Shown in pieces: positions 2 through 36,658 of a stretch of 64,000 nt of DNA (position 1 is its first letter; each line of letters starts with the position of its first letter). The stretch spans positions 62,001 to 126,000 of the forward strand of contig NZ_FOJW01000007.1 of NCBI RefSeq assembly GCF_900112045.1, given 5' to 3'. The DNA comes from Lentibacillus halodurans. Its GTDB lineage: Bacteria; Bacillota; Bacilli; Bacillales; Amphibacillaceae. The notes beneath the pieces were generated by a model. That model ran no database searches and had not been told where the DNA came from. It saw nothing but the letters and a program-made list of their open reading frames with translations. The position numbers and the translations under genes are program-made.

Positions 2-667
2 AATATTTTAAGTTACGATATCGCAAAAAAGTTCTCCAAGAACCCTTCTAAATTCGGTAAAGGAACGAAAGATGGTTTGATTGCAGCCGAATCAGCGAAT
101 AACTCATCCGTTGGCGGTGCACTGGTTCCAATGCTGGCGTTTGGTATTCCGGGCGATGCGGTAACTGCCATGATGCTGGGTGCTTTATTGATTCATGGTA
201 TTCAGCCTGGCCCATTACTGATGGAAAATCAGCCGGTTTTGGTTAATGGTGTATTCATTTCGTTCTTTTTAGCTGCATTTTTAATGCTAATCGTTCAAAG
301 TTTAGGAATTAAAGTATTTCTGAAAATTAATCAGATCCCATTTCATTATCTGGTCCCCATTGTGCTGCTATTATGTGTACTTGGCAGTTTTGCTGTTAAT
401 AACCGTATATTTGATGTGTGGGTTCTCTTATTATTTGGGTTAATCGGATACTGGATGAAAGCTAATAAATTTCCTTTACCTCCGTTTATACTGGGGATCA
501 TCCTTGGGCCGATGATTGAATCGAACTTTCGGCAGGCCATTTCATTAGGAGCTGTCTCGACATTTTTTACAAGACCATTATCTGCAGTATTGATTATTCT
601 TGCTGTTTTATCAATGATATATGGCGTATATAGCAATAATAAAAGTAATCAACAGGAAAACTATTAA
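2..667 (+). CDS. tctA: Tripartite tricarboxylate transporter permease, TctA family (5' truncated by window edge)
   Basis: This is the C-terminal part of the large membrane permease of a tripartite tricarboxylate (TTT) transporter, which imports citrate-like acids with a periplasmic-type binding protein and a small TctB subunit. The reading frame is open from base 2, so the gene starts outside the window. The family-typical stretch AAESANNSSVGGALVPMLAF followed by GIPGDAVTAMMLGAL is present near the left edge, and at least five hydrophobic segments follow. The hydrophilic tail ends at TAA. Partner genes, if present, lie to the left. Substrate cannot be told from this part. Confidence 0.9.
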   Translation, partial: NILSYDIAKKFSKNPSKFGKGTKDGLIAAESANNSSVGGALVPMLAFGIPGDAVTAMMLGALLIHGIQPGPLLMENQPVLVNGVFISFFLAAFLMLIVQSLGIKVFLKINQIPFHYLVPIVLLLCVLGSFAVNNRIFDVWVLLLFGLIGYWMKANKFPLPPFILGIILGPMIESNFRQAISLGAVSTFFTRPLSAVLIILAVLSMIYGVYSNNKSNQQENY

Positions 668-720
668 CGTTTATATTACAGGGAATCCCGCTTATTATAA
701 AGTTGCGGTGGATGGATGAC

Positions 721-766
721 TAATCCCTAACTGAGTCTATTCTCTCAGGCGGGGATTATTTTTATT
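721..766 (+). terminator. Rho-independent terminator after tctA
   Basis: TAATCCC (721-727) pairs with GGGATTA (752-758), and CTGAG (731-735) with CTCAG (744-748) inside. A run of T follows at 759-764. It lies about 55 bases after the tctA stop. Confidence 0.8.
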
Positions 767-941
767 ACTGCTATAAGTACAATATGTAATTTTATGCTTC
801 TCCAAGTGATACAAAAAAGCACGCCTCTCTGCACTTATATTCTTGACGATGTAGCGGGCACCTTCTGCTTTTATGGAAACATTCGGATTCGACAGTCTGC
901 ACTATTGCTGATAACCACATAATATTATTTTCAAATCACAC

Positions 942-972
942 TTACAAAATCAGTGATATTATGAGATAATAT
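942..972 (+). promoter_or_regulatory. Possible promoter and palindrome ahead of the LCP gene
   Basis: TTACAA (942-947) and GATAAT (965-970) have a 17-base spacer. A perfect palindrome, ATATTAT-GAG-ATAATAT (956-972), covers the -10 box and could bind a regulator. The rest of the 766-1052 gap is AT-rich and shows no gene. The call is tentative because AT-rich palindromes are common by chance. Confidence 0.35.
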
Positions 973-1052
973 GACAAAGTGTATCATTAGGTATAACGAC
1001 TCATAATAGAACACAATAAATTATTAGAATGTTTTATTGGGGGAAAGAAATC

Positions 1053-1982
1053 GTGGAAGAAAAGAGAGTGAATCGCAAAAAATCTAAAAAACGCTGGCTG
1101 AAAATAACATTGGCTGTAATTGGTTTACTGATACTTGGAATTGGGCTTTATGGCTTGTCGATTTATGGCAATGCCAGAGATACAGTCAATGAAAAAATGC
1201 ACGAACAAATTGATTCGATTGATCGTAATTTGACAAAGAAAAAAGTTGAAGCTTCTGAACAGCTGAACGTCCTCTTGCTTGGCGTGGACGAGCGTGAACA
1301 TGACAGTGGGCGGTCGGACGCGTTGATGGTGTTGTCTCTGGAGCCCAAAAATGAGGAAATGCAGCTGATCAGCATTCCACGGGATACAAGGACAACCATA
1401 GTCGGTGAAGGGGTGGAGGATAAAATCAATCATGCTTATGCATTTGGCGGCAGTGATATGTCCGTTGCGACGGTCGAAAATTTTTTAGACATTGAACTGG
1501 ATTATTACGTCCGTATGAACATGGAAGGGCTCCAGGAACTGGTTGATAGGCTTGGTACGATCACAGTGGATAACGAAATTGCCTGGAATGACGGGGAGTA
1601 TGATTTTAATGTCGGTCCTATGGAGATGGATGGGGATCAGACAATGGCCTATGTCCGCATGCGCAAACAGGATCCAAATGGTGATTTCGGCCGAACGGAA
1701 CGCCAGCGTAAAGTCATTCAAGGCATTATTGACCGTGGCGCTTCCGTTGGTTCTGTGACGAAAATCAATGATTACATCGACGTTCTCGGCAATAATATGG
1801 CAACAAATATGGATTTTGACGACATGAAGATGCTTTTCAATGGTTATCGTAATACGCGCAAAAACATTGACAGCTATCAAATACAAGGAAACGGAACAAA
1901 TATTGACGGCACCTATTACCTCATGGTGCCTGACGAAGAAGTGCAGAAAGTGCATGGTATGATCAGTAAGAGTGCATCTTAG
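1053..1982 (+). CDS. LytR-CpsA-Psr (LCP) family cell-wall glycopolymer ligase
   Basis: LCP proteins transfer teichoic acid or other polyprenyl-linked glycopolymers onto peptidoglycan on the outer face of the membrane. The protein has a basic N-terminus, one membrane helix (about residues 14-38) and an extracellular LCP domain starting at LNVLLLGVDERE. The conserved GRSDALMVLSL, ISIPRDTR and KINHAYAFGG blocks and the late R-T-E-R-Q-R motif are all present. I chose GTG at 1053 (309 residues) because GGGGGAAA sits seven bases upstream; an ATG at 1029 has no ribosome site. It stands alone. The length fits TagT/U/V-type proteins, but which member it is cannot be decided. Confidence 0.9.
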   Translation: MEEKRVNRKKSKKRWLKITLAVIGLLILGIGLYGLSIYGNARDTVNEKMHEQIDSIDRNLTKKKVEASEQLNVLLLGVDEREHDSGRSDALMVLSLEPKNEEMQLISIPRDTRTTIVGEGVEDKINHAYAFGGSDMSVATVENFLDIELDYYVRMNMEGLQELVDRLGTITVDNEIAWNDGEYDFNVGPMEMDGDQTMAYVRMRKQDPNGDFGRTERQRKVIQGIIDRGASVGSVTKINDYIDVLGNNMATNMDFDDMKMLFNGYRNTRKNIDSYQIQGNGTNIDGTYYLMVPDEEVQKVHGMISKSAS

Positions 1983-2022
1983 GTGTGTTGGATTGGGAGA
2001 AGGTATAGATCAGATTCATATA

Positions 2023-2512
2023 GATGCTGGTACACAATTAAAACTTTCCATGCTAAAGACGAACATTACAGGGCAGGAAGGGCAGCATTTTACTTTTTCA
2101 ACAGTCGCATCCTTATTCATCATTGATAACGACTGCGAACGCGTGACAATTTGTCTTGGTATAGCCTCCCTTCCATTCTGATGTTAGTTGCGTGCGATCA
2201 TTCGCTCCGGCAGCATACTGCGCTTTCCATGGGCACGGACTCAGCCTCCTCGGAAAGCAAAGACCTATTTCCTGCGGGTTTTCGGCTCGCGCTGTTCCCC
2301 GGAAAGGGCGTATTTTTCCGCAGCGACCATCATGCACTCACCAACAAAAGCATGGAAGCAAGCAAATCTAAGACCAAATGACTTCTCAGTTGATTTGATC
2401 ATGCGCAACAAATTTTCAAACATATCTCAAAAGATACATCCGAACTGTTCCCATCATAGTGGAATCATCGTTCGGATGTATCTTTGGCTTATATCCTTTT
2501 GTCTCGGCCTCG
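2023..2512 (-). repeat. Dispersed repeat, copy A (GGCTGGGACA family)
   Basis: On the minus strand this block begins near GAGGCCGAGACAAAAGG (2511 downward) and ends near GTACCAGCATC (about 2023), giving imperfect terminal inverted repeats. It aligns along nearly its whole length, in inverted orientation, with 34885-35585, which has about 210 extra bases in the middle. Short open frames inside it in several frames look like chance. It fills most of the 1983-2677 gap. I take it for a non-coding mobile or regulatory repeat. Confidence 0.8.
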
Positions 2513-2605
2513 TTTTTTGCACTAAAATAGGTTATATCTGAGAGGGAATCAGATCCTTCAGCCGAAATATAGGGTCAGCTACCTGTCTTCTTATAAGCAC
2601 ATATT

Positions 2606-2633
2606 TTGGATAGTATACAAACACTGCTATAAT
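2606..2633 (+). promoter_or_regulatory. Sigma-A promoter of the SDR gene
   Basis: TTGGAT (2606-2611), a 16-base spacer, and TATAAT (2628-2633) preceded by TG one base upstream (extended -10). It lies 45 bases before the SDR start codon, with an operator-like palindrome just downstream. Confidence 0.7.
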
Positions 2634-2637
2634 AGGA

Positions 2638-2661
2638 TTGTAAAGATTATAACCTTTACAA
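2638..2661 (+). promoter_or_regulatory. Palindromic operator before the SDR gene
   Basis: TTGTAAAG (2638-2645), eight bases, CTTTACAA (2654-2661) is a perfect inverted repeat placed at the expected transcription start and just ahead of the ribosome site AAGGGAGGGG. The position suits a repressor site. The regulator is unknown and is not encoded next to it. Confidence 0.65.
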
Positions 2662-2677
2662 AGGGAGGGGAAGAGAG

Positions 2678-3418
2678 ATGGAACTTAAAGGTAAAGTCGC
2701 AGTTGTCACAGGCGGGGCATCCGGAATCGGGTTGGCCACTGTCAAGGCGTTCACTGCAAAAGGTGCTAAAGTTGTTATTGCGGATTTTGATGAAGATGGC
2801 GGGAAGGCCACTGAGAGAGAATTGAAAGATCATGGTGCTGACGTATTTTTTGCCAAAACCGATGTTGCTGTTGAGAACCAGGTGAAAAGTCTTGTTAAAC
2901 AAACCGTGGATCATTATGGAAAAATTGATATAATGTTCAATAATGCTGGTGTTGGTGTACAAGGCCAAACCCATGAACTTTCTGATGAAGATTATCAAAA
3001 AGTAATTTCCATTAACCAAAACGGTGTCTTCTACGGTTCAAAATATGCTGTTCAGGAAATGCTGAAATCCGGCAGTGGTGTTATCGTGAACACATCTTCC
3101 ATTTTAGGAACTGTGGGCGAACCAAGTGCCTTTGCCTATAATGCATCAAAAGGTGCAGTCAATTTGATGACAAAGTCGCTGGCTCTGCAATATGCGGAGA
3201 AGAATATCCGCGTCAATGCCGTTGCGCCAGGATACATCGAGTCAGGTCTGGTCAATAAAGAAAAGCTGGGCGAGTTCTATAATGGACTGGTTGCCAAGCA
3301 TCCCATGGGGCGGATCGGTAATCCGGATGAAGTTGCCCATACTGTTGTATTTTTATGTGAGAATGATTTTATCACAGGTACTATTGTCCATGTTGATGGC
3401 GGGTATACAGCGCAGTGA
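2678..3418 (+). CDS. Short-chain dehydrogenase/reductase (SDR), classical type
   Basis: This is a 246-residue NAD(P)-dependent oxidoreductase with a full classical SDR plan. The cofactor motif TGGASGIG is at residues 11-18, NNAG at 88-91, the catalytic Ser at 141, and Tyr154/Lys158 in YNASK. The acidic residue in IADFD after the second strand suggests NAD preference. The C-terminal GTIVHVDGGYTAQ is typical. The start is fixed by AAGGGAGGGG eight bases upstream. It is monocistronic, with its own promoter, operator and terminator. The substrate (sugar alcohol, steroid-like or acyl compound) cannot be told from sequence. Confidence 0.93.
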   Translation: MELKGKVAVVTGGASGIGLATVKAFTAKGAKVVIADFDEDGGKATERELKDHGADVFFAKTDVAVENQVKSLVKQTVDHYGKIDIMFNNAGVGVQGQTHELSDEDYQKVISINQNGVFYGSKYAVQEMLKSGSGVIVNTSSILGTVGEPSAFAYNASKGAVNLMTKSLALQYAEKNIRVNAVAPGYIESGLVNKEKLGEFYNGLVAKHPMGRIGNPDEVAHTVVFLCENDFITGTIVHVDGGYTAQ

Positions 3419-3429
3419 TGTTATTCAGT

Positions 3430-3461
3430 CATCCTTCCTATTGAGGAGGGATGGCTTTTTT
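3430..3461 (+). terminator. Terminator of the SDR gene
   Basis: CATCCTTCC (3430-3438) pairs with GGAGGGATG (3445-3453), followed by GC and six T. It lies directly after the SDR stop codon. Confidence 0.85.
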
Positions 3462-3703
3462 GATAGGGAGAGAAGAGAACCTATCGTATTAAAGCTGTTG
3501 GGCCGGGTAAGATCTTTTCCAGTTTAACCCCATAATCATTCAGTATTATATCTTTAACAGATATACGATAAGGAAACGGCATTTAAAATAACAGCTTACT
3601 ATTGTAAAATAAAGTATAAAACTGGTGGGCAAAGGGTCCCCAAAGGCAGAATCGGGATAGAGTGTCTATCAATTTGTCCCAATGGACGAGGGGGGGAACG
3701 TGT

Positions 3704-4743: not shown

Positions 4744-6667
4744 ATGAATAACAGGCAAAAAGAACTATTACGCATTTTACTGACTGGCTCATCTGATTTT
4801 TTCCATGTACAGGAACTGTCAAATGAATTGGGATGTTCAGAGAAAACAGTACGAAGCGATTTAAACAGAATTGAGACGTTTCTAAAAGAATATCCAGCTG
4901 TTGAACTGATCAGGAAACGTGGTACGGGTATACATCTTTCAATACATCATGCTGACAGGGTGAAGCTGTTTCATCATATCTATCAGACCGGAAAGATAGC
5001 AGCCGGGCATGAACGTGTGCTTGAAGTAGCATATCAGCTGCTGACAAGTGATAATCCCCTCACGTTGGCAAGTTTGGCTGAAAGCTATTTTACAAATCCG
5101 ACATCAATGAAACATGAATTGAACAGGATTGCCCATTGGCTTGAAGGTTATCATCTGACATTAATGTCAAAGCAGCGTCTTGGCCATATTGTGAAAGGTC
5201 GCGAGCTGGACAAACGCAATGCACTGGCTAATCTGTCTGAATTAATACCGTCTGAGAACCGAGAGAAGGACCGTATCTTGCAACTATTTCCGCAAAATGA
5301 AACAGCAACGGTAAGAAAGCTGCTGCGTGGTTTGCAGGTGGATTATCCGATTGATCTGACTGAAGGGGAATTTGAAAGTCTGCTGATTCATGTATTGATT
5401 ATGATTAAACGAACCCGTCAGCGTTCATCCATCGTGCTGGGCGAAATGGATGCTGGTGCAAATGTGAAGCTGGAAACCTATCATATGACAGCCTGGTTCC
5501 TAAAACGGCTGGGCGATGCACTTGGGGTGTCTTTCCCTGAAAATGAATATGTTTATTTTACATGGCATCTGGAAAGCTGCAGGAAAAAGAATGGTCTGAC
5601 AAACTTAAAAGCTGATGATTTATTGGCTGATGTCGTCCGGCAAATGACGTTACAGCTGCAGCACATGACGATGATCAGATTTCGGGAGGACAAGGTGCTT
5701 GGCCGATGGTCTTGTTACGCATCTTGCGTCAGCCTTGCATCGCATCAGGTATGGTCTTACAATTAGAAATCCAATGCTTTCCGACATTAAAAAGAAATAT
5801 CCTTATATGTTAAGCATGGTGATTCTGGCTGTCGAAAAAGTTAATGAAGCTTATGATCTGGACATCGCAGAAGATGAGGCTGCCTATCTGGTTCTACATT
5901 TTCAGGCCTCGATTGAGCGGATGCAACAAGAACGAACGCCGGTTAAACGTGCTGTTATTGTATGTGACCTGGGCGTTGGGATGTCCCATTTGCTTCAGGC
6001 GAAATTGGCACAATCTTATAAAAGCATCCATATTTTAGGTTGCATCAGTAAGGCAGCATTGAATGAATTTGTGGAGACTCATGAGATTGACTTAATTATT
6101 TCAACAACAGGCATCAACGATTGCGAGATTCCAAAAGTTGAGATTACACCTCTTCTGGAAACTGACGATAAAAAACGGCTGAACCAAGTTTTGCAGTTAA
6201 TGGAACGTGAATTGGCAGATAGAGGCGAGATGTTTTCAACGATCAAGCAATTGCTGAATGAAGATACAATTTATTTCGATATCGATTTAAAGCATCGTTT
6301 TGAAGTTGTCGAAATGCTTGCCAGCAATCTTGTTGGTAAAGGATTCGCTGAGACATCATTTGTACACAGTGCGATGCTGCGGGAACAGACATCTGCTACC
6401 GCAATCGGCGGGGGAATAGCTATCCCGCATGCCCATCCGGATCTAGTTAAAAAGTCTGTTGTATCCATAGCTGTTTTGCATGAACCGCTGGAATGGGGGA
6501 GTGAGGTGGTCTGGGTGGTGTTTATGCTGTCCATTGCCAAAGCGGATCAGCACATGACAAAATCGCTCATGCAGACCATTGCCTCCATCAGTGAAAAGCC
6601 TGCTGCTGTCGAACATCTAAAAAAAGCCAACAGCGTCTCAGATATTCTGACAGTTTTTGATCAATAA
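4744..6667 (+). pseudogene. manR: ManR-like PTS-regulated transcriptional activator, one-base frameshift
   Basis: This is a BglG/MtlR-type activator of the mannose operon. It has an N-terminal HTH (SEKTVRSDL), two PRD domains, an EIIB-like domain (VIVCDLGVGMSHLL) and a C-terminal EIIA-like domain with IPHAH. The chain is split. The first frame runs off at 5766, and the second, open from TTG at 5699, continues PRD2 exactly. One extra T at 5699-5700 (CTTG where CTG is expected) explains the break, and removing it would restore about 640 residues. All else is intact, so it may be a recent mutation or a sequence error. It directly precedes manP. The 185 bases before it show no clear promoter. Confidence 0.88.
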
Positions 6668-25483: not shown

Positions 25484-26415
25484 TTTATACAATTACCCTT
25501 AATCCTTCAATTGATTATGTCATTCATATCAATCAGCTGCATCTTGGGGAATTAAATAAAATGGAAAATGAGATGAAATTCCCGGGAGGTAAAGGGATTA
25601 ATGTGTCCCGTCTGCTGCATGAATTGAAATATGATACAACCGCCCTTGGATTCCTGGGAGGTTTTACAGGCGATTTTATTGTCGGTGAATTGAATAACAA
25701 GGGTATTCGAGCCAAATTCACGCCAATTCACGGTGAAACACGAATCAACATTAAATTGAAGTCGGAAACAGAAACTGAAATTAACGGTCTGGGACCGGAA
25801 ATTTTGCCGCACGAAGCAGATCATCTGTTGTGTCAGCTTGGAGACTTAACCAGACAGGACATGATTATTTTATCCGGCAGCACTCCGCCATCTTTAAACA
25901 ATGACTATCTTCAACAATTGATTGAACAAATTGCCAGCTCTGGTGCGTCATTTGTGACTGATACAACAGGAAATGCCCTTAAATCTGTATTGCCCTATCG
26001 ACCGCTGCTGGTCAAACCAAATATGGAAGAACTGGGTGGATTGTTTGGGGTCACCCTCAGCAGCCTAAATGAAGTCGTGTATTATGGAAAAAAACTACTG
26101 GATCTGGGTACTCAATATGCAATTGTTTCGATGGCTGGTGATGGCGCCCTGCTTTTTACTGAAGAAGGTATTTATCAGGGATCAACGCCTGCAGGTCATG
26201 TTAAAAACTCGGTCGGTGCCGGTGATTCTATGATTGCGGCTTTTGCTGGCAAATGGAAGGAAACGGGAGATGTGATGGAAGCATTTCGAATGGGTCTGGC
26301 ATCAGGAAGTGCGACCGCCTTTTCAGATGATTTAGCTAAAGCTGAAGATATTTATCCGTTACTGAACAAGATTGATATCACCCGTATAGAAGGGAAGAAG
26401 AAACATGAAGATTAA
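25480..26415 (+). CDS. fruK: 1-phosphofructokinase
   Basis: This 311-residue PfkB-family kinase converts fructose-1-phosphate, made by FruA, to fructose-1,6-bisphosphate. The N-terminal MIYTITLNPSIDYVIHI, the PfkB signature FPGGKGINVSRLL and catalytic Asp249 in NSVGAGDSMIAAF are present. It overlaps fruR by four bases and fruA by eleven, so all three are translated together. The length and order match Bacillus fruK. Confidence 0.96.
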   Translation: MIYTITLNPSIDYVIHINQLHLGELNKMENEMKFPGGKGINVSRLLHELKYDTTALGFLGGFTGDFIVGELNNKGIRAKFTPIHGETRINIKLKSETETEINGLGPEILPHEADHLLCQLGDLTRQDMIILSGSTPPSLNNDYLQQLIEQIASSGASFVTDTTGNALKSVLPYRPLLVKPNMEELGGLFGVTLSSLNEVVYYGKKLLDLGTQYAIVSMAGDGALLFTEEGIYQGSTPAGHVKNSVGAGDSMIAAFAGKWKETGDVMEAFRMGLASGSATAFSDDLAKAEDIYPLLNKIDITRIEGKKKHED

Positions 26416-28291
26416 TGATTTATTGCGCAAAGATATCATGGTCATGGATATGCAAGCTCAAAATAAGTCTGCCTCCATTGATGAAATGGTTCAAACCCTT
26501 GAAGCAAACAGTGTGATCAATGATGCGGACACATTTAAGGAAGCGATTTTAAAACGAGAAGAACAGACATCCACCGGTTTGGGTGACGGGATTGCCATGC
26601 CGCATGCCAAAACAGATGCAGTCAATGAGCCCGCTGTTCTATTCGCTAAAAGTGAGAACGGACTGGATTTTGAGGCATTGGACGGTCAGCCAACATATCT
26701 GTTTTTCATGATTGCGGTGCCGGATGGGGCAAATGATACGCATTTGCAGGCACTGGCTGAATTATCCAGGATACTGATTGACCAGGTGTTTGTTACCCAG
26801 TTAAAACAGGCTTCCACACCAGAGGAAGTTCAAGCACTTTTTCAGCACACGGAGCAGGAGGAGAGCTCATCTGATAAGAAGGAGACGGATGAGGAAAAAG
26901 CGCCCGATGCAGAGAAGGCGTATGAAAAGCCATTTGTAGTTGCGGTCACTGCTTGTCCTACCGGGATTGCACATACGTATATGGCTGAAGATACGTTGAA
27001 AAAACAAGCTGCTGAAATGGATGTTGATATCCGTGTGGAAACAAACGGCTCGGATGGTGCTTCAAATGAACTAAGTAAAGAAGAAATTGACAGGGCGTCT
27101 AGTGTGATTGTTGCTGCTGATAAAAATGTAGCAATGGCCCGTTTTGATCAGAAACCAGTGCTTGAAAGACCTGTCAGTGATGGGATTAATAAAGCAGAGG
27201 AATTGATTACGAAAGCAGTTAACCAGGATGCACCGATTTATCATGCGGATGAAGCGACCGATGAAGATGGTGAAGCAGCGCAGTCCTCGTCTGTCTGGCG
27301 GAAAATATATAAAGATTTGATGAATGGTATTTCCCACATGCTGCCATTTGTTGTGGGAGGCGGCATTCTGATGGCCATTTCTTTCTTGCTGGAAGGCTTT
27401 CTGGGAAGTGACCACGAGCTGTTTACGTTCTTTAATACCATCGGAAGTAACGCTTTTAGCTTCCTGATCCCGATCCTTGCGGGATATATTGCCATGAGTA
27501 TTGCCGATCGCCCCGGACTGATGCCTGGTCTTGTCGGCGGTTTTATGGCCGTTGAAAGTAATGCGGGTTTTCTCGGCGGATTAGTTGCCGGCTTTCTGGC
27601 CGGTTATCTCGTTCTGTTCGTGAAAAGATGGTTCCGTGGATTACCGCAATCATTGGATGGTTTAAAATCAATATTACTTTATCCGGTCTTTGGTCTTCTC
27701 CTGATTGGTTTTTTCATGTATTTTTTAATCGGCCCGATTTTTTCAGCCATTAATACCGGAATGATCAGTTTTCTGGAAAATCTCGGGACGGGCAATATAG
27801 TTATTCTTGGCGCTTTACTTGGCGGAATGATGGCCATTGATATGGGCGGTCCGTTTAACAAAGCCGCTTATACGTTTTCGATTGGAATCTTTACCGACAC
27901 TGGAGATGGCAGTTTGATGGCAGCCGTTATGGTTGGTGGTATGATTCCGCCGATTGCCATTGCGCTGGCGACTACATTCTTTAAAAATAAATTTACGGGG
28001 GAGGAGCGTAAATCAGGCAGTACGAACTATGTGATGGGACTTTCATTCATTACGGAAGGGGCCATCCCATTTGCTGCAGCCGATCCGGTTCGTGTTATTG
28101 GATCGTCTGTGCTGGGAGCCGTAATTGGCGGCGGTCTGACACAGCTTTGGGCGAGCTCAATACCAGCTCCCCACGGCGGTATTTTCGTCATTCCATTAGC
28201 TGAAAACGCACTTCTCTTCCTGGTGGCCCTGGCAATTGGGTCCGTCATTGCATCAATTGTTCTTGGTATCTGGAAGAAGCCTGTACAATAA
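26405..28291 (+). CDS. fruA: PTS fructose transporter EIIABC
   Basis: This 628-residue protein imports and phosphorylates fructose to fructose-1-phosphate. The domain order is EIIA (His67 in GIAMPHAKT), an acidic linker, EIIB (Cys184 in TACPTGIAHTYMAEDT) and a membrane EIIC (about residues 300-625, with DMGGPFNKAAYTF and ITEGAIPFAAADPVRV). The A-B-C order separates it from ManP, which is B-C-A, although the EIIB and EIIC parts are clearly related. It overlaps fruK by eleven bases and is the last gene of the operon. Confidence 0.95.
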   Translation: MKINDLLRKDIMVMDMQAQNKSASIDEMVQTLEANSVINDADTFKEAILKREEQTSTGLGDGIAMPHAKTDAVNEPAVLFAKSENGLDFEALDGQPTYLFFMIAVPDGANDTHLQALAELSRILIDQVFVTQLKQASTPEEVQALFQHTEQEESSSDKKETDEEKAPDAEKAYEKPFVVAVTACPTGIAHTYMAEDTLKKQAAEMDVDIRVETNGSDGASNELSKEEIDRASSVIVAADKNVAMARFDQKPVLERPVSDGINKAEELITKAVNQDAPIYHADEATDEDGEAAQSSSVWRKIYKDLMNGISHMLPFVVGGGILMAISFLLEGFLGSDHELFTFFNTIGSNAFSFLIPILAGYIAMSIADRPGLMPGLVGGFMAVESNAGFLGGLVAGFLAGYLVLFVKRWFRGLPQSLDGLKSILLYPVFGLLLIGFFMYFLIGPIFSAINTGMISFLENLGTGNIVILGALLGGMMAIDMGGPFNKAAYTFSIGIFTDTGDGSLMAAVMVGGMIPPIAIALATTFFKNKFTGEERKSGSTNYVMGLSFITEGAIPFAAADPVRVIGSSVLGAVIGGGLTQLWASSIPAPHGGIFVIPLAENALLFLVALAIGSVIASIVLGIWKKPVQ

Positions 28292-28328: not shown

Positions 28329-28817
28329 ATGACTAACATCTAAAATATGATCCGTCTTGTGGTCGGTCGGAGGTATGTGAAGCTGTCCTTTGTGATGAAC
28401 GTCATGATTCATCGCATTGGATAGCCCATTTATACAAGCAGTAAATCTCCACTGCCATCGACTGCTGTATAAGATAGCATGATTTATGCTGCAGCTTAAG
28501 CCCTCTTTACAACCATTAGCTTATTTTGAAGATAATGGTTATTTTCAGCATAGCCACCCATATTTGCTAGTGGCGATTTTCAGTCTCTGTCCCGATTTTT
28601 GGGGAGGGGGGCAGGCCAGCCACTATCCTCGTAATCGCTAGCAGGTTTTAAAACTGTTATATCCTGAATGGTCGAAGTAGATTTCTTTAGGTATTATATA
28701 CTATCTATCACTAGACTTTTGTCTCAATAATAGTCTGATTTTTTTATGATTTGGTACTTTTCGCATCTAGCAGGCTTTTTCAAAATTATTTATATTAAAT
28801 GTAACTGAAGTATAGGT

Positions 28818-29131: not shown

Positions 29132-29734
29132 ATGAAATGGGTAAGTTATACGTTCATGTTACTTTGGAGTGGTGTAAATCACGATGTTCAGCCATGAATA
29201 TATTTCTCATAAACAAACCCAGAATCATTGCAATAGGCTCAACAAGCTATTTCCCAACAGACAGATGGCAACGGTGATGGTTTGAGCTCTGCATTTCCTG
29301 TTAACTTTATGGCTTCAGATGGCAACGCTTTCGCTATGCTGGAGATACCTAATTTGGACAAGATGCTGCCTGTGGTCGAAGGAACAAGTCCGAAATCCTT
29401 GGAGAAGGGAGTGGGTCATTTAGCATTTCAGCCTATCCGGGACGAAATGGTCAGATTTTTTTTTCTGGGCATCGGGATACCGTTTTTCGCCAATTTGATG
29501 GAATTGGGATTGGTGATGAATACAAAGTGACAACCCCTTACGGCACATATACATGAAATCAGACAAACGGAAATTGTTCCAGCTGACGATACATCTGTCA
29601 TAAGAGAAATGGAGAAGGAAATGATCGTTGTTACTACGTGCGATCCATTTGAGTATATTGGCGATGCGCCGGAACGATTTGTGACATATGCCTATCTGGT
29701 TGACGATGGTGAATATCAATTATTCAGTTCGTGA
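29132..29734 (+). pseudogene. srtD: Class D sortase gene, frameshifted
   Basis: A sortase can be read across frames. It has an N-terminal hydrophobic start (MKWVSYTFMLL), then AFAMLEIPNLDKMLPVVEGT and SLEKGVGHLAF. The catalytic His block GHRDTVF and GDEYKVTTPYGTYT are in another frame. EIVPADDTSVIREMEKEM and catalytic Cys in VVTTCDPFEYIGDAPERFV are in a further frame, ending at TGA 29732-29734. Several frameshifts and a stop interrupt it. It lies just upstream of a protein with an LPDTA sorting signal, the type used by B. subtilis YhcS (SrtD). A good ribosome site (CTGGAGG) remains. Confidence 0.85.
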
Positions 29735-29916
29735 AAGCTTTGTATGGATTGGCATTATTAGGCGGCAATGGCCAAATGCTGCATGTTGATCCTTGTCGTC
29801 ACCAAAAGGATCTCCAGATTGATAATGATGGCTGTTTTGAACAATGTGGGAAAGCTGACTCTATTAGACTATGAGTAAATGTTTATGGTCAAATTTACAA
29901 AAAAGGGGACAGAAGG

Positions 29917-32900
29917 ATGCGTGCAAGGATCAGGAAAAAATATTTCAGTATCATGATGGTTTTTGTACTGATGGTAAGTATGCTTACACCTGCAGCAGGC
30001 CCATTGGGTAACGATGCTTTGGCAGCGGACGGGACGTTGACTGTCGGGGAAGCGATTGAACAGGACAATGATGGCAGTGAACAGACCGTTAGAGGGCATG
30101 TTGTCGGGTATGTTCTTTCATCTGATAATGTGTCGCAAACTGATTTCAATGATGATTATAATGTTGCGCTGGCAGATGAAGCCGATGAAACCGATCCTGA
30201 TCAAATGCTGTATGTTCAAGTGACCGACGATTTCCGGTCAGAGTTCGGTCTGAAGACAAACCCTGATAATCTGGGGGAGGAGATTGTTGTCACCGGGACG
30301 TTGAACGAATATCACAGCCATAATGGTCTGAAGGAACCGAATGATATGAGATTCGCTTCCGAGGAGCCGGAAGAACCGGATGACCCGCTTGAAATCCAAA
30401 CAATCGCTGAAGTAAGAGATCAGGCCACAGGTGAAGCCAAAACGAAAGGCGTTGTAACGGCAAAATTAAACAATACAATTCAAATTCAGGATGATACCGC
30501 CGCAATTGCTGTGCGTCCGACGTCACTTGATGTGCAAATGGGAGACGAAATCACGGTGATAGGCAGTTTGGACGATTACCGGGGTTTACTCCAATTAAAT
30601 AATGCAACGATTGGGGATAAGGCAGAAGGTTCAGTGATTCCGGATCCTTTATCGATTACTGGTGGTGAGCTGGAAAACCATCAATCAAAACTGGCGGTGA
30701 TCGAAAATGTAACGCTCACGGATGTTCATGATGCTGGTGATTGGGCGAATTATACTGCTGAGGATGATGCCGGGAATACATTTGTTGTACGGGATGAGAC
30801 AGGAGAACTGACACTGAAAACAGATGTCACATATGATGCCATTACCGGGGTTGTGACACAATTTGATTCCGACCAGCAGATTATCCCACGCAGTCAGTCG
30901 GATATCGTTGGTGACACATCTGCGGTCCAGCCGGTTACAGCAAGCCCGGAGCCTGGCGTCATTCCGACGGGGACCGATGTGACGCTGGAAACAGCTACAG
31001 ATGGTGCTGACATTTTGTACACGACAGATGGCAGTGATCCTTCAGAAAATGGAGAACGATATGCGGGCGCTATTACGGTTGATGAGGATGTAACAATTAA
31101 AGCCATTGCCGAAAAAGAAGGATTGACAACAAACGAAACAGCTGAATTCAGCTATTCTGTCTATGATTCTGAAAACGGCGTTATGATACACGACATTCAA
31201 GGTAAAAGTCACGCATCACCTATGGATGGCAGCACTGTTCAAGACGTTGAAGGTATTGTCACATACGAATATGAAATCAGGGATTCGAACTACTTTCATA
31301 TGCAGACACCGGAAGAGGATTACGATGGGAATGAAAAAACATCGGAAGGCATCGTTGTCTATACGGGAAATTCGAATGATGTTGAAGTCGGTGATCTTGT
31401 CAGTGTTACGGGAGAAGTCGACGAATATCATATTGACGGGTATGAGGATCGAGCTGAGACGGATTTGTCGGTTACAGAACTTGTTGCACTGGATGATCAG
31501 GGCGGAGTTGTTGACGTGATGGAAAATGATGTTAATTTACCGTCTGCTGTTGAGATCACTTCAAGCGATATTCCGGAAGAAATTGTTGGTGAAGACGGTT
31601 TTGACAGTTTTGAACCAGCTAATTATGCGATTGATTACTGGGAAAGCATTGAAGGCATGCGAGTGGAAGTGGCACCATCCCGGGCAGTCGCACCACAGGA
31701 GCATGGTGATCTGGTTGTTGCGACAGAAGAGTTTATGCCGGAAAATAGTACCGAAAATGGCGGAATCCGTTTAACTGATGAAGGACCAAATGCCCAGACG
31801 ATCCAGTTTAAGCTGCATCCTAACGGGGATGCGAGGGATTTCGCTGTTAAGACAGGGGATAAATTTACTGAAACCGTTGATGGCGTTGTCAATTACGGTT
31901 ACGGAAATTACAAGGTTTATGCCGATTTGGAGGATGCTGAATCAGTATTTGAAGAAGGGGATACAAAGCCGGAACAAACAAGCATTGTTAAAGATGAGGA
32001 CAAGTTGACGGTTGCCACATATAATGTGGAAAACTTTTCGGCAAATGATCGTGAGACATCACCACAAAAAGCGGAAAGTATTGCCCGTGCCTTTGTAAGT
32101 GATATGAACATTCCGGATATAGTAGGGATTGTTGAAGTCCAGGATAACAATGGACAGGATGAAGGTCCTCAAGATGCGGATGCTTCTGAAAGTTATCAGC
32201 GGCTTATTGACGAAATTAAGAATCAGGGCGGACCAGATTATGACTACGCTAATATTGATCCCGCGTACAATCAGGATGGCGGGGCGCCGCATGGTAATAT
32301 TCGCGTCGGTTTTCTTTACAATCCGGAACGTGTATCACTGATGGATGGTGACGCCGGCACATCAACAGAGGCGACTGACTATGTGGATGAACAATTGACA
32401 TTGAATCCAGGACGCATTTCGCCTAATGCGGATGCACTCGAGGATACGCGAAAACCATTGGCGGCTCAGTTCAATTTTAATGGTGAAAGTGTTGTCGTAG
32501 TAGCGAATCACTTCAACTCCAAGAGCGGTGATGATGGTGCATTCGGCCAGAATCAGCCGCCTGAATTAAAAAGTGAACCGCAGCGTCGCGAACTGGCAAA
32601 AATCGTTCATGAATTTGTGACAGATATCAAGGCAGACAATCCGGATGAAAATGTCATGGTGCTGGGGGACATGAATGATTTTGAATTTTCCGAGCCACTG
32701 GATATTCTTGAAGGTGAAGAACTGACAAACAAAATCATGTCGGTTCCTGAGGATGAACGGTACACATATGTTTATCAGGGGAACTCACAGGTGCTTGATC
32801 ATGTTCTCGTATCCGATCACCTGGCTGAAGCCACTGAAGTTGACATTCTGCATGTGAATTCAGATTTCACGGATATGCATGGACGTGCGAGTGATCACGA

Positions 32901-34857
32901 CCCGATCATGACGCAAATTGATTTGCAGGATACTGAAGAGTCAGATACTCCATTTGACTTTTCCATCATGCATATGAACGATACCCACGCTCATGTCGAA
33001 TCACTGCCGAAAATGATAACAGCCATTAAGGATTTCAGAAAAGAAAATCCGGATTCACTGCTTCTTCATGGCGGGGATGTCTTTTCCGGAACCCTGTACT
33101 TCAATGAGTTCAATGGACAAGCTGATTTGGAACTGCTGAACATGATGGAAATGGATGCCATGGTTTTCGGTAATCACGAATTTGATCTTGGCGGTACAGA
33201 AGGAGGTCATGAATCGTTATCAAAATTCGTTGAAAATGCTGCGTTTCCGTTCCTTGGCACGAACATTGACTTTTCACAAGATCCGCATATGAAAGAGCTT
33301 GAAACCAATCAACCGCTGGTTGATAGTCCGGAAAACGGGCAAATTTACAATAGCATTGTCAAGAATATAGAGGGTGAACAAGTAGGGATCTTCGGCTTAA
33401 CGACCGAGGATACAGAAAATATTGCAAACCCTGAAGATGTAACCTTTGCAGATTACAAGGAAACGACTGAACAAACGGTGCAAGCCTTTGAAGATGCGGG
33501 GATCGATAAGATTGTCGCTCTCAATCACCTCGGTTTTGACAGTGCACCTGAAGTGGGCAACGATCTGCGCCTTGCCGAGGAAGTCGATGGCATTGATGTC
33601 ATTGTAGGCGGTCATTCCCACTCTGAACTTGACGAACCGGAAATAGTCCCACAGGAGCAAGCGTCATCTCAAGTCGTGATGCAGGATGAGGAAGGGGATG
33701 CCAAGGCCCCGACCGTGATTGTACAGGCAGGACAATATGCCGAGCACCTTGGTACACTCGATGTGACGTTTGATGACAATGGTGTGGTTACCGCGTATGA
33801 AGGTGAACTGCTTGATGTGGGGGAGTATGCCGAAGATCCCGAAGCCGCAGAGGTGCTCAAACCTTATAAAGAAGCGATTTTTGACAAAATGACTGAAGAA
33901 ATTGGCGCAGTAGCCAAGCAGGAATTGACAAACCCGCGACAGGATGAGCCGGGCGATGACAGTGTGAGAGCTAACGAAACCGAGCTGGGAAATTTGATTA
34001 CTGATGCGATGCTTGCCAAAGCACAAGAAAAATATCCTGAAACGGTTATAGCCTTTCAAAATGGCGGCGGAATTCGTGCTCCGATTGATGAAGGGCCGAT
34101 TACAACCGGAGAAGTCATGAGTGTCCTGCCATTTGGCAACAATCCGGTGATTGCAACATTAACCGGTCAGGAAATCAAAGATATCCTGGAACACAGTGTG
34201 CGTCAGGCACCTGCTGAAAATGGCGGGTTCCTCCATGTTTCCGGTATGCGTTTCTATTATGACAGTGAAAAAGAACCAGGAAGTCGTATCGTTCAGATGT
34301 ATGTTCAAAATGACGGGGAATGGGTAGAGATGCAGCCCGATAAGGAATATCATGTGACAACGAATGGGTTTACCGGTCAGGGCGGTGACGGCTTTGAAAC
34401 GTTTGCCCAGGCATATGACGAAGGACGCGTGAAAGATATTGGTGAAAGCGACTGGGGACAGTTGGTTGAATATATGGTCGAGGAAGAGTATCTGGATGGC
34501 ATTGTAGACCCTGAACGAGAAGGACGGATTGTTGATCTGAAGGGTGAAGATTTTACAGGGCTCCCGAACAATCCGGAAGATCCTGGTGAAAACGAGGACC
34601 CGGGTGATGACAACGGCAATAACGGGAGTGGAGATGATTCCGGTTCCAATCAGGATGGAATGCTGCCTGGAGAAGATGATGACCCGAGCGGCCATGGCAT
34701 GATACCAGGTGACCGTTCCGGAGATGGTGCAACATTACCGGATACAGCAACAAACATGTTTACGTTCTTGCTCATTGGTAGTATGTTGCTTGCAGCTGGT
34801 GGGATGATTCTCCTTTACAGACGTCGGCATTTCGGAAATACGTCTGATGAAACATAA
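29917..34857 (+). CDS. yhcR: Wall-anchored multidomain nuclease/5'-nucleotidase, YhcR-like, LPDTA sorting signal
   Basis: This secreted 1646-residue enzyme probably degrades extracellular nucleic acid and nucleotides. It has a signal peptide (residues 1-36, cut after NDALA) and two OB-fold-like regions (about 40-330). A chitobiase-type domain (about 341-420, ILYTTDGSDPSE) and another OB-like region (about 425-530) follow. An ExeM-type endonuclease domain (about 696-1010, TVATYNVENF, LGDMNDFEF, GRASDHDPIM) is next. Then comes a metallophosphatase (about 1013-1300, HMNDTHAH, GGDVFSGT, GNHEFD, GGHSHSE) and a 5'-nucleotidase C-domain (FQNGGGIRAPI, TTNGFTGQGGDGF). A Gly/Asp/Asn-rich spacer leads to LPDTA at 1607, a membrane segment and an RRRH tail. 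B. subtilis YhcR is the closest known relative. Its likely sortase, upstream, is broken. Confidence 0.92.
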   Translation: MRARIRKKYFSIMMVFVLMVSMLTPAAGPLGNDALAADGTLTVGEAIEQDNDGSEQTVRGHVVGYVLSSDNVSQTDFNDDYNVALADEADETDPDQMLYVQVTDDFRSEFGLKTNPDNLGEEIVVTGTLNEYHSHNGLKEPNDMRFASEEPEEPDDPLEIQTIAEVRDQATGEAKTKGVVTAKLNNTIQIQDDTAAIAVRPTSLDVQMGDEITVIGSLDDYRGLLQLNNATIGDKAEGSVIPDPLSITGGELENHQSKLAVIENVTLTDVHDAGDWANYTAEDDAGNTFVVRDETGELTLKTDVTYDAITGVVTQFDSDQQIIPRSQSDIVGDTSAVQPVTASPEPGVIPTGTDVTLETATDGADILYTTDGSDPSENGERYAGAITVDEDVTIKAIAEKEGLTTNETAEFSYSVYDSENGVMIHDIQGKSHASPMDGSTVQDVEGIVTYEYEIRDSNYFHMQTPEEDYDGNEKTSEGIVVYTGNSNDVEVGDLVSVTGEVDEYHIDGYEDRAETDLSVTELVALDDQGGVVDVMENDVNLPSAVEITSSDIPEEIVGEDGFDSFEPANYAIDYWESIEGMRVEVAPSRAVAPQEHGDLVVATEEFMPENSTENGGIRLTDEGPNAQTIQFKLHPNGDARDFAVKTGDKFTETVDGVVNYGYGNYKVYADLEDAESVFEEGDTKPEQTSIVKDEDKLTVATYNVENFSANDRETSPQKAESIARAFVSDMNIPDIVGIVEVQDNNGQDEGPQDADASESYQRLIDEIKNQGGPDYDYANIDPAYNQDGGAPHGNIRVGFLYNPERVSLMDGDAGTSTEATDYVDEQLTLNPGRISPNADALEDTRKPLAAQFNFNGESVVVVANHFNSKSGDDGAFGQNQPPELKSEPQRRELAKIVHEFVTDIKADNPDENVMVLGDMNDFEFSEPLDILEGEELTNKIMSVPEDERYTYVYQGNSQVLDHVLVSDHLAEATEVDILHVNSDFTDMHGRASDHDPIMTQIDLQDTEESDTPFDFSIMHMNDTHAHVESLPKMITAIKDFRKENPDSLLLHGGDVFSGTLYFNEFNGQADLELLNMMEMDAMVFGNHEFDLGGTEGGHESLSKFVENAAFPFLGTNIDFSQDPHMKELETNQPLVDSPENGQIYNSIVKNIEGEQVGIFGLTTEDTENIANPEDVTFADYKETTEQTVQAFEDAGIDKIVALNHLGFDSAPEVGNDLRLAEEVDGIDVIVGGHSHSELDEPEIVPQEQASSQVVMQDEEGDAKAPTVIVQAGQYAEHLGTLDVTFDDNGVVTAYEGELLDVGEYAEDPEAAEVLKPYKEAIFDKMTEEIGAVAKQELTNPRQDEPGDDSVRANETELGNLITDAMLAKAQEKYPETVIAFQNGGGIRAPIDEGPITTGEVMSVLPFGNNPVIATLTGQEIKDILEHSVRQAPAENGGFLHVSGMRFYYDSEKEPGSRIVQMYVQNDGEWVEMQPDKEYHVTTNGFTGQGGDGFETFAQAYDEGRVKDIGESDWGQLVEYMVEEEYLDGIVDPEREGRIVDLKGEDFTGLPNNPEDPGENEDPGDDNGNNGSGDDSGSNQDGMLPGEDDDPSGHGMIPGDRSGDGATLPDTATNMFTFLLIGSMLLAAGGMILLYRRRHFGNTSDET

Positions 34858-34884
34858 TAGACTTTAACTAGAAGTAAAGACAGA

Positions 34885-35585
34885 GAGGCTGGGACAAAAG
34901 GATATTAGCCAAAGATAAATCCGTACGATGATTCCACTATGATGGGAACAGTTCGGATTTATCTTTTGAGGGATGTTTGAACATTGGTTGCGCATGATCC
35001 ATCAACGGAGAAGTAACTTGGTCTTAGATTTGCTTGCTTCTATGCTTTTGTTGGTGAATGCATGATTATCGTTGCGGAAAAATACGCCCTTTCCTTGGCA
35101 CGACCTCAGCTAACTTTGCCAGGAAAACTACTTGGCAAAGTGGATCTTCGGCTCGCGCTGTTCCCCCAGGCGTGTTGCATTTTTCCGCGGTTTAGAATAG
35201 TGTTCTCATAAGGTGACAGCAAGTTCAATGAATATTGTTCTATAAGTTCTTTTCTTTCAACCATCAGCACCCCAACATGAGCGGAAGCAGCATACGGAGA
35301 CTCCTATGGGAACAGCACGAGCCGAAGCCCCCGCAGGAAAGAGGTCTTTGCTTTCCAAGGAGGCTGAGGCCGTGCCCAGGGAAAGCGCAGTATGCTGCCG
35401 GAGTGAATGATCGCACGCAACTAACATCAGAATGGAAGGAAGGCTGCACCAAGACAAATTGTCACGCTTTCGCAGTCGTTAACAACGATGAATATGGATG
35501 TGACTGTTGAAAAAGTCAAATGCTGCACTTCCTGCCCTGTCATCGTTCGTCTTTAGCGTGGAACGTTTTAACTGTGTTCCAGCCT
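34885..35585 (+). repeat. Dispersed repeat, copy B (GGCTGGGACA family, composite)
   Basis: It starts with GAGGCTGGGACAAAAG (34885-34900) and ends with GTTCCAGCCTC (35575-35585), an imperfect terminal inverted repeat. It matches copy A (2023-2512) in inverted orientation over both ends. About 210 extra bases sit in the middle (roughly 35095-35305). They carry a second, inverted copy of a core: CTTCGGCTCGCGCTGTTCCC (35146-35165) against GGGAACAGCACGAGCCGAAG (35308-35327), 19 of 20 complementary. Small open frames in it are chance. The 256 bases after it (35586-35841) show no gene. Confidence 0.82.
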
Positions 35586-35841
35586 CGTTTGTAAGTATAG
35601 AAAATATAAACTGAGATGTTCAGATCCGAGCGTCCGGCGATTCGTGAGACTTCCCTCGGCTCCGTACGATAAGTCAATATCAATTTGCTTAACAACTCAT
35701 TGCGTTTCCTTTATATCTTGCAGCTCAGTCCAGGTCATACGTTGCTGAACGGGTATTCTTTGCTTTTCTGAGGATAGACATGAATCATAATTTTAATGAT
35801 GTATTGTTCCTCACTGTTTTGTACAACGTGTCATAAACAAA

Positions 35842-36597
35842 TTATTCCAAAATATAATCTCCAAGGCTTACTTGTAATTGCGCCATTTCTGCAAAAAGTC
35901 GTTTATAAGTACTATGTGAAGTTTTCTCATCTCCTTTATGGTGTCCAATTAGAAAGTAACCTTCCTCCGTTTTAAAATAGGGATAACCTTTATTAGAGTT
36001 TGGCTGCAGCATGTACAAGTGGCTATAATTTGTGAATTCCCCTTTTTGTATTTGCTCTCGTTTCGTTAAATTGCCTATATGATAGTCTGTATCTAATTGT
36101 GATTCGTACAATTCATCGATAAAATCTACTAATACCTTAAAAAATTCACCATCTGAAATATTCTCGATATTTTTATTTAAATAAAAGGATTGTTTTGGTA
36201 ACTTTTTAGTGTGATTTGATCGAAATCCAGATCGACTGCTTTATTCATTAATTCAATTTGTGCATGATCATTCGCTCCTTCATTTCAATCGCCATACGCT
36301 GTTACACAATCTTTTCTTTCTGATGATGCATGATCGATAAATATTTTTCAGGTGACTTATTTACTACATAATGGCGAATATTATGTAATGACATACCAAG
36401 ATCCTTTAACAAATCAATCACCATAAAAAGCTCTAATTGATGAATCGAGTAATAGCGATAGCCTTTTTCATTCTTAAATTTAAAGGCCCGACTTGATCGT
36501 AGTAAAAAGGAGTCTGTTTATTTACTTTACATAGCTTTGCAAATTCGCCAGTTGTGAAATATTTTATATTCTTTTTCGCTATTTTGGATCGCTCCAC
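35842..36597 (-). pseudogene. MerR-family regulator gene with GyrI-like effector domain, broken
   Basis: Starting from GTG 36597 on the minus strand, KYFTTGEFAKLCKVNKQTPF and YYDQVG form the MerR HTH. The frame then shifts, and GYRYYSIHQLELFMVIDLLK and LHNIRHYVVNKSPEKYLSIM follow to a stop near 36300. The middle has several stops. The last part, open at 36111-35842, reads LTKREQIQKGEFTNYSHLYM and EEGYFLIGHHKG, like the effector domains of BltR/BmrR-type drug-sensing regulators. It is divergent from the MFS gene, the usual arrangement of such an activator and its exporter, so the exporter has probably lost its regulator. Confidence 0.75.
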
Positions 36598-36658
36598 GCT
36601 TGACTATATACCATAAGATAAATCAGTGTACACTGAAATGAAAGGAAAAAGGAGCAAA

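Follow-up and report, generated by a model that had tools for sequence, protein, structure and literature searches.

The class D sortase gene (srtD) directly upstream of an intact nuclease/5'-nucleotidase gene in Lentibacillus halodurans is broken, and the most probable reading of the locus (roughly 0.8) is that a srtD-yhcR pair has lost a redundant sortase half, with the enzyme being anchored in trans by an intact LPxTATN-type SrtD. In general sortase chemistry, cleavage takes place after the Thr of LPDT and is followed by linkage to the wall. The sortase half would have decayed in the ordinary way, having become redundant, and the enzyme would still be exported. An intact class D sortase would then cleave it between LPDT and A and attach it in trans to the wall; the likeliest candidate is the copy on contig C11 (for which L. 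populi provides a precedent), and the copy at C16:1970 is a possible one. Several SrtD copies are apparently interchangeable and one of them was lost; the biological consequence would most likely be small, the redundancy having absorbed the loss.

The broken sortase and its surroundings

The host genome (G000) is a draft of 3.67 Mb in 31 contigs, and the window, that is the whole 64-kb stretch of DNA that was analysed, corresponds to G000:C16:62001-126000. The gene order is fruA, a decayed stretch, the sortase relic and the intact gene for the enzyme (Table 1).

Table 1. Features of the locus (window positions) and of the rest of the genome (contig positions)
Feature	Position	Strand	Evidence or remark
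fruA, fructose PTS transporter gene	26405..28291	+	upstream syntenic anchor; name read from product
DinB-family gene remnant	28368..28435	-	blastn 74-78% to four relatives; tblastn fragment 28424-28380, E 0.006
srtD pseudogene (class D sortase relic)	29132..29734	+	three-frame translation, DNA alignment to intact CBA3610 ortholog
Predicted secreted multidomain nuclease + 5'-nucleotidase (YhcR-like), 1646 aa, intact	29917..34857	+	ORF; Pfam domains
Acidic/Gly linker	34548..34734	+	homology to FIMAH-type relatives ends ~34547
Predicted LPDTATN sorting signal, hydrophobic helix, basic tail	34735..34857	+	NF058670, 53 bits, residues 1607-1637
Intact SrtD, C11 copy	C11:43107-43667		247 bits, NF058671 cut-off 140; adjoins LytR and penicillin-binding-protein genes
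Intact SrtD, second copy	C16:1970-2524		230-231 bits, NF058671 cut-off 140
LPxTATN protein, 211 aa	C23		weak camelysin match; downstream of strong camelysin homolog
LPxTATN protein, 2316 aa	C12		lamin-tail and metallophosphatase domains

The relic is homologous to an intact SrtD, the protein of Lentibacillus sp. CBA3610 matching it with an E value of 4e-40 in a tblastn search of the window. No single frame runs through it in a three-frame translation: SGHRDTVFRQFDGIGIGDEYKV is found in one frame, and LEIPNLDK... and VVTTCDPF...PERFVTYAY share another, so that the His block is out of frame with the Cys/Arg block; the first-pass annotation had stated this for His and Cys. Alignment at the DNA level to the intact CBA3610 ortholog adds two in-frame stop codons and five separate insertion/deletion sites, the fifth of which lies at the very 3' end, in a weakly aligned part. 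In a genome-wide scan with NF058671, NCBI's 'LPxTATN-specific' SrtD model with a curated cut-off of 140 bits, the relic appears at G000:C16:91228-91695 as a match with stops inside; its best piece reaches 99 bits and contains a TGA and a TAG, and a full-length open frame over the cut-off is absent. The relic is a pseudogene of this family of LPxTATN-specific class D sortases, not a member of it.

In two trees the relic groups with the enzyme-linked SrtD of CBA3610 (support 100/96 and 99/90), and its branch is long (0.75 vs 0.21 for the CBA3610 copy). Differences between the two by codon position are 0.231/0.171/0.449, and their dN/dS of 0.20 compares with 0.10 for the intact C11-type pair of G000 and L. 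salicampi (G008), in which dS is near saturation. When polarised with L. saliphilus over 191 codons, the relic branch carries 23 first-, 17 second- and 27 third-position changes, and the CBA3610 branch 13, 10 and 24. The relic is thus, as far as these patterns go, under relaxed constraint, though not over its whole branch, and its death would be placed fairly late, since codon-like substitution has been retained.

The fruA-yhcR interval has evidently decayed as a whole, because the DinB-family gene has also been reduced to a fragment. An open frame lies at the same place in CBA3610 (G007; with a Pfam DinB match), L. kapialis (G005), L. salicampi and G011. A fruA homolog is found upstream of the enzyme in the first three of these and in L. 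jeotgali (G006), and none in the stretch examined for G011.

The enzyme and its sorting signal

According to Pfam, the enzyme contains DUF6359, CHB_HEX_C_1 (chitobiase-like), Exo_endo_phos, Metallophos (calcineurin-like), 5_nucleotid_C and Gram_pos_anchor domains, and it unites in one protein the endonuclease/exonuclease/phosphatase, metallophosphatase and 5'-nucleotidase C domains that define a YhcR-like enzyme. Its scores stay below the cut-offs that the NCBIfam nucleotidase and nuclease models set for a full-length match, and an exact name is therefore withheld. With its signal peptide judged by eye, it is a predicted secreted YhcR-like nuclease/5'-nucleotidase, whose catalytic activity and wall linkage are putative.

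The C-terminus reads ...LPDTATNMFTFLLIGSMLLAAGGMILLYRRRHFGNTSDET, which corresponds to LPDTATN, a helix and RRRH, and it is matched by the LPxTATN model NF058670 above the cut-off of 32 bits (Table 1). The first-pass annotation had described an end of LPDTA, a membrane helix and RRRH in this 1646-residue protein; that description holds and can be refined, the predicted signal being LPDTATN, of the LPxTATN subtype, which is more specific than plain LPDTA. LPDTATN, helix and RRR are conserved between G000 and L. populi. The Nei-Gojobori dN/dS between the two is 0.10 for the enzyme core (1524 codons) and 0.13 for the signal, an imprecise value on 34 codons that covers the whole divergence rather than the period since sortase death; it argues for a tail probably kept by selection, and does not give the timing relative to that death.

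Intact sortases and further substrates

The SrtD model marks four stretches of the genome, namely two intact copies and two relic pieces, and a generic sortase family model points to the same places. Both intact copies contain SGHRDTVFR, TCYPF and PER[YF] blocks, which we take to be the catalytic blocks of a sortase. A second class D sortase was what the first-pass annotation had named as counter-evidence to its own reading, and two were found. As to other LPDT(A/S) proteins, for which it had suggested a search, three proteins exceed the cut-off of the LPxTATN model, namely the enzyme and two others; TIGR01167 alone recovers just one of the three and so undercounts. The tally is one relic, two working-looking sortases and three substrates. 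The C16:1970 sortase has upstream of it a 607-aa protein without a Pfam or NCBIfam match, which gives no clue to the role of that copy.

Comparison with relatives

The enzyme was searched in 60 genomes, and a close ortholog (76-80% identity in the best stretch) was found in five genus mates, namely L. kapialis, L. jeotgali, CBA3610, L. salicampi and G011. Homology stops at about 34547 in all five (blastn of 34501-36600 against the five relatives), and direct reading of the sequences reveals a FIMAH-type tail in place of the sorting signal in each, the Pfam FIMAH model having been run, and matched, for the CBA3610 enzyme only. No sortase adjoins the enzyme gene in four of the five. The exception is CBA3610, where an intact SrtD lies 72 bp upstream of the FIMAH-ending enzyme. 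The C11-type locus of the same genome (between XRE and LytR genes) holds two sortase fragments, covering residues 1-60 and 52-89 (E 4e-15), a relic without the catalytic half. G000 and CBA3610 have thus lost opposite SrtD copies, which is reciprocal loss within one genus, since the enzyme-linked copy is intact and the C11-type copy a relic in CBA3610, and the reverse holds in G000.

In the full-length enzyme tree, C-terminal columns included, the FIMAH forms of the genus cluster (96/97), as do the two LPDTATN forms (100/98). In a tree on residues 425-1535 only, the FIMAH enzyme of L. kapialis joins those of G000 and L. populi (90/99), and a good part of the other groupings has poor support. 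An ancestral sorting signal with FIMAH as the derived state was considered and dropped in view of this second tree and of a FIMAH tail in Virgibacillus sp. MSJ-26; swaps may have been several and in either direction. Overall the enzyme tail (34548-34857, set against L076, L077, L078, L079 and L080) varies among relatives, with the LPxTATN signal in G000 and L. populi, a FIMAH-type end in the five genus mates and in Virgibacillus sp. MSJ-26, and an SLH-like end, judged by eye, in G028.

Among 12 genomes of the genus, LPxTATN proteins occur in six (G000, G003 and G007-G010), and SrtD of the general clade occur in the same six, an agreement of 12/12 that leaves out, as a post hoc choice, the SrtD of L. 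kapialis and L. jeotgali, and that becomes 10/12 when any SrtD over the cut-off is counted; the genomes are related, and the agreement does not amount to a significance test. The SrtD left out belong to a separate clade and lie beside LPDTAT[VA] proteins. Members of this clade (L086, L094 and L095, from CBA3610, L. kapialis and L. jeotgali, respectively) adjoin small proteins ending in LPDT[AS]T[VA]LPLG, a variant that the LPxTATN model does not report at those loci.

In a second genome collection, a single-protein query returned no relative and an alignment query returned relatives. L. populi has the same enzyme with LPDTATN and no SrtD ORF in the examined flanks of the enzyme. One SrtD was found in its genome (a draft whose completeness is not stated, and on which this single count rests), on another contig beside XRE and PBP genes and 69% identical to the C11 copy, which makes the C11 type the likeliest acting sortase; there are four LPxTATN proteins per one sortase found. 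Virgibacillus sp. YIM 98842 has an LPDTATS enzyme and one SrtD, also on another contig. In L. saliphilus (L129), an intact ortholog of the relic lies directly upstream of two LPETATN enzymes (srtD-yhcR-yhcR); it is 63% identical to the CBA3610 copy, and nothing else in its genome scores above the SrtD cut-off.

Across 77 loci, the best of 240 relatives, an ORF of more than 500 aa ending in LPxT[AGS] is present in 34. The examined flanks of these span 655-4825 bases on the upstream side (median 2376) and 75-3000 on the downstream side (median 2988), one locus falling under 1 kb on each side, and they contain an SrtD ORF in two cases (L129 and L166) and none in 32. Sortase adjacency is the exception for an LPxT-ending enzyme in this sample.

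Alternative explanations

A draft in 31 contigs could harbour a sequencing or assembly error that conceals a sortase ORF intact in the cell, but this is very improbable here: five indel sites and two stops fall within ~600 bp beside a clean 4.9-kb ORF, whose uninterrupted course makes scattered error unlikely, and the raised dN/dS, the long branch and the decay of the local DinB gene also speak against it. Even less credible is programmed frameshifting that joins the broken frames into a working sortase. All three blocks (His, Cys and Arg) can still be read, but such recoding would need several frame changes and the reading through of two stop codons in a gene of ~200 codons, and the relic appears to be under relaxed constraint. 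A dedicated one-to-one pair of sortase and substrate was rejected along with these two.

Loss of the linked sortase might instead leave the enzyme poorly sorted, with its C-terminal helix keeping it in the membrane and part of it being shed, which we consider unlikely. The neighbouring sortase is dead, and excerpts of PMC3222306 describe a B. subtilis reporter with the YhcR tail, much of which was cell-bound without either sortase, perhaps held in the membrane; they also cite an older finding that YhcR and YfkN escape into the medium from yhcS ywpE null cells. Against this stand two intact SrtD that exceed the cut-off of the LPxTATN-specific model, a signal conserved with respect to L. populi (which keeps it with one distant SrtD found) and the absence of a flanking SrtD as the common state. 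Together with the mirror image in CBA3610, the same points favour anchoring in trans, which would be consistent with the L. populi combination of a signal and a C11-type SrtD only. The first-pass annotation had left both fates standing; anchoring by another sortase is now the better supported, given two intact copies, and the membrane-held or shed enzyme is not favoured, given the signal shared with L. populi and the single SrtD of that species on another contig. Two counterpoints to anchoring in trans concern specificity. The C11 copy shares only 47% identity with the relic's intact ortholog, and the preferences of the two could differ; and the YfkN tail (LPDTA), which may be regarded as the motif nearest to that of the enzyme, was hardly displayed in a B. 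subtilis reporter, as opposed to the displayed YhcR tail (LPDTS), in the available text of PMC3222306.

Known systems and meaning

The YhcS (SrtD)/YhcR/YfkN system of B. subtilis likewise pairs a class D sortase with an adjacent nuclease/5'-nucleotidase whose signal is of the LPDT[SA] type, and YhcS, which in the same excerpts is needed for display of both YhcR and YfkN, offers a bench precedent for sorting beyond the linked protein (PMC3222306). Unlike in the yhcR-yhcS order of B. subtilis, the linked sortase here is dead and lies upstream of its substrate, and G000 has two other SrtD copies. In B. subtilis, yfkN is presumably unlinked to yhcS. The L. saliphilus arrangement resembles the present one in having the relic's ortholog directly upstream of LPETATN enzymes, and differs from it in that the sortase is intact and the sole SrtD over the cut-off in that genome. 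According to parts of PMC3617157, class D sortases often adjoin a postulated substrate, neighbourhoods that invite substrate guessing from adjacency, and Bacillus cellulosilyticus has four SrtD and 27 LPXTA proteins (LPXTATN/S/T being noted), with three of the four sortases not adjoining any LPXTA protein; these parts, unlike the case described here, do not mention a broken sortase.

Three natural experiments (an intact sortase beside an enzyme without a signal, a dead sortase beside an enzyme with one, and a species in which one distant sortase was all that was found) argue that LPxTATN sorting may work in trans and that copies may substitute for each other. Sorting in trans fits what has already been demonstrated for YhcS, YhcR and YfkN of B. 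subtilis. The case, though real, is for the most part ordinary; what it adds, modestly, is reciprocal loss plus a swapped attachment end of the enzyme within one genus. A literature search over titles and the opening parts of abstracts returned nothing on reciprocal loss of class D sortases. We lean slightly towards the wider reading that two LPxTATN sortases are interchangeable within one genus and reciprocally lost, that the shared enzyme swaps its signal for a FIMAH end or the reverse, and that neighbourhood is a poor guide to substrates. If true, a linked sortase can outlive the signal of its substrate, a signal can outlive its linked sortase, and the substrates of class D sortases in general would be poorly predicted from genomic neighbourhood. 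The comparative pattern makes their interchangeability testable.

Other features of the loci

In L. salicampi, the LytR gene beside the C11-type sortase is a remnant (L089, 3300-3960), and in G011 a penicillin-binding protein near the C11-type sortase is split into two ORFs (G011:C1:3699321-3701344). The enzyme locus of L. jeotgali, fruA included, occurs twice (G006:C13:72717-76124 and G006:C14:289393-292800; L132 and L133), in two identical stretches of 9,579 bases in which both enzyme genes are without about residues 58-421; this is possibly an assembly duplicate. A dispersed repeat, composed of two conserved stretches of ~210 and ~250 bp with a similarity of 71-94%, is present at several sites of the genome, with copies in the window at 34885-35560 (just downstream of the enzyme gene) and 2049-2511, and in L081 at ~2826-3478 and ~5976-6390.
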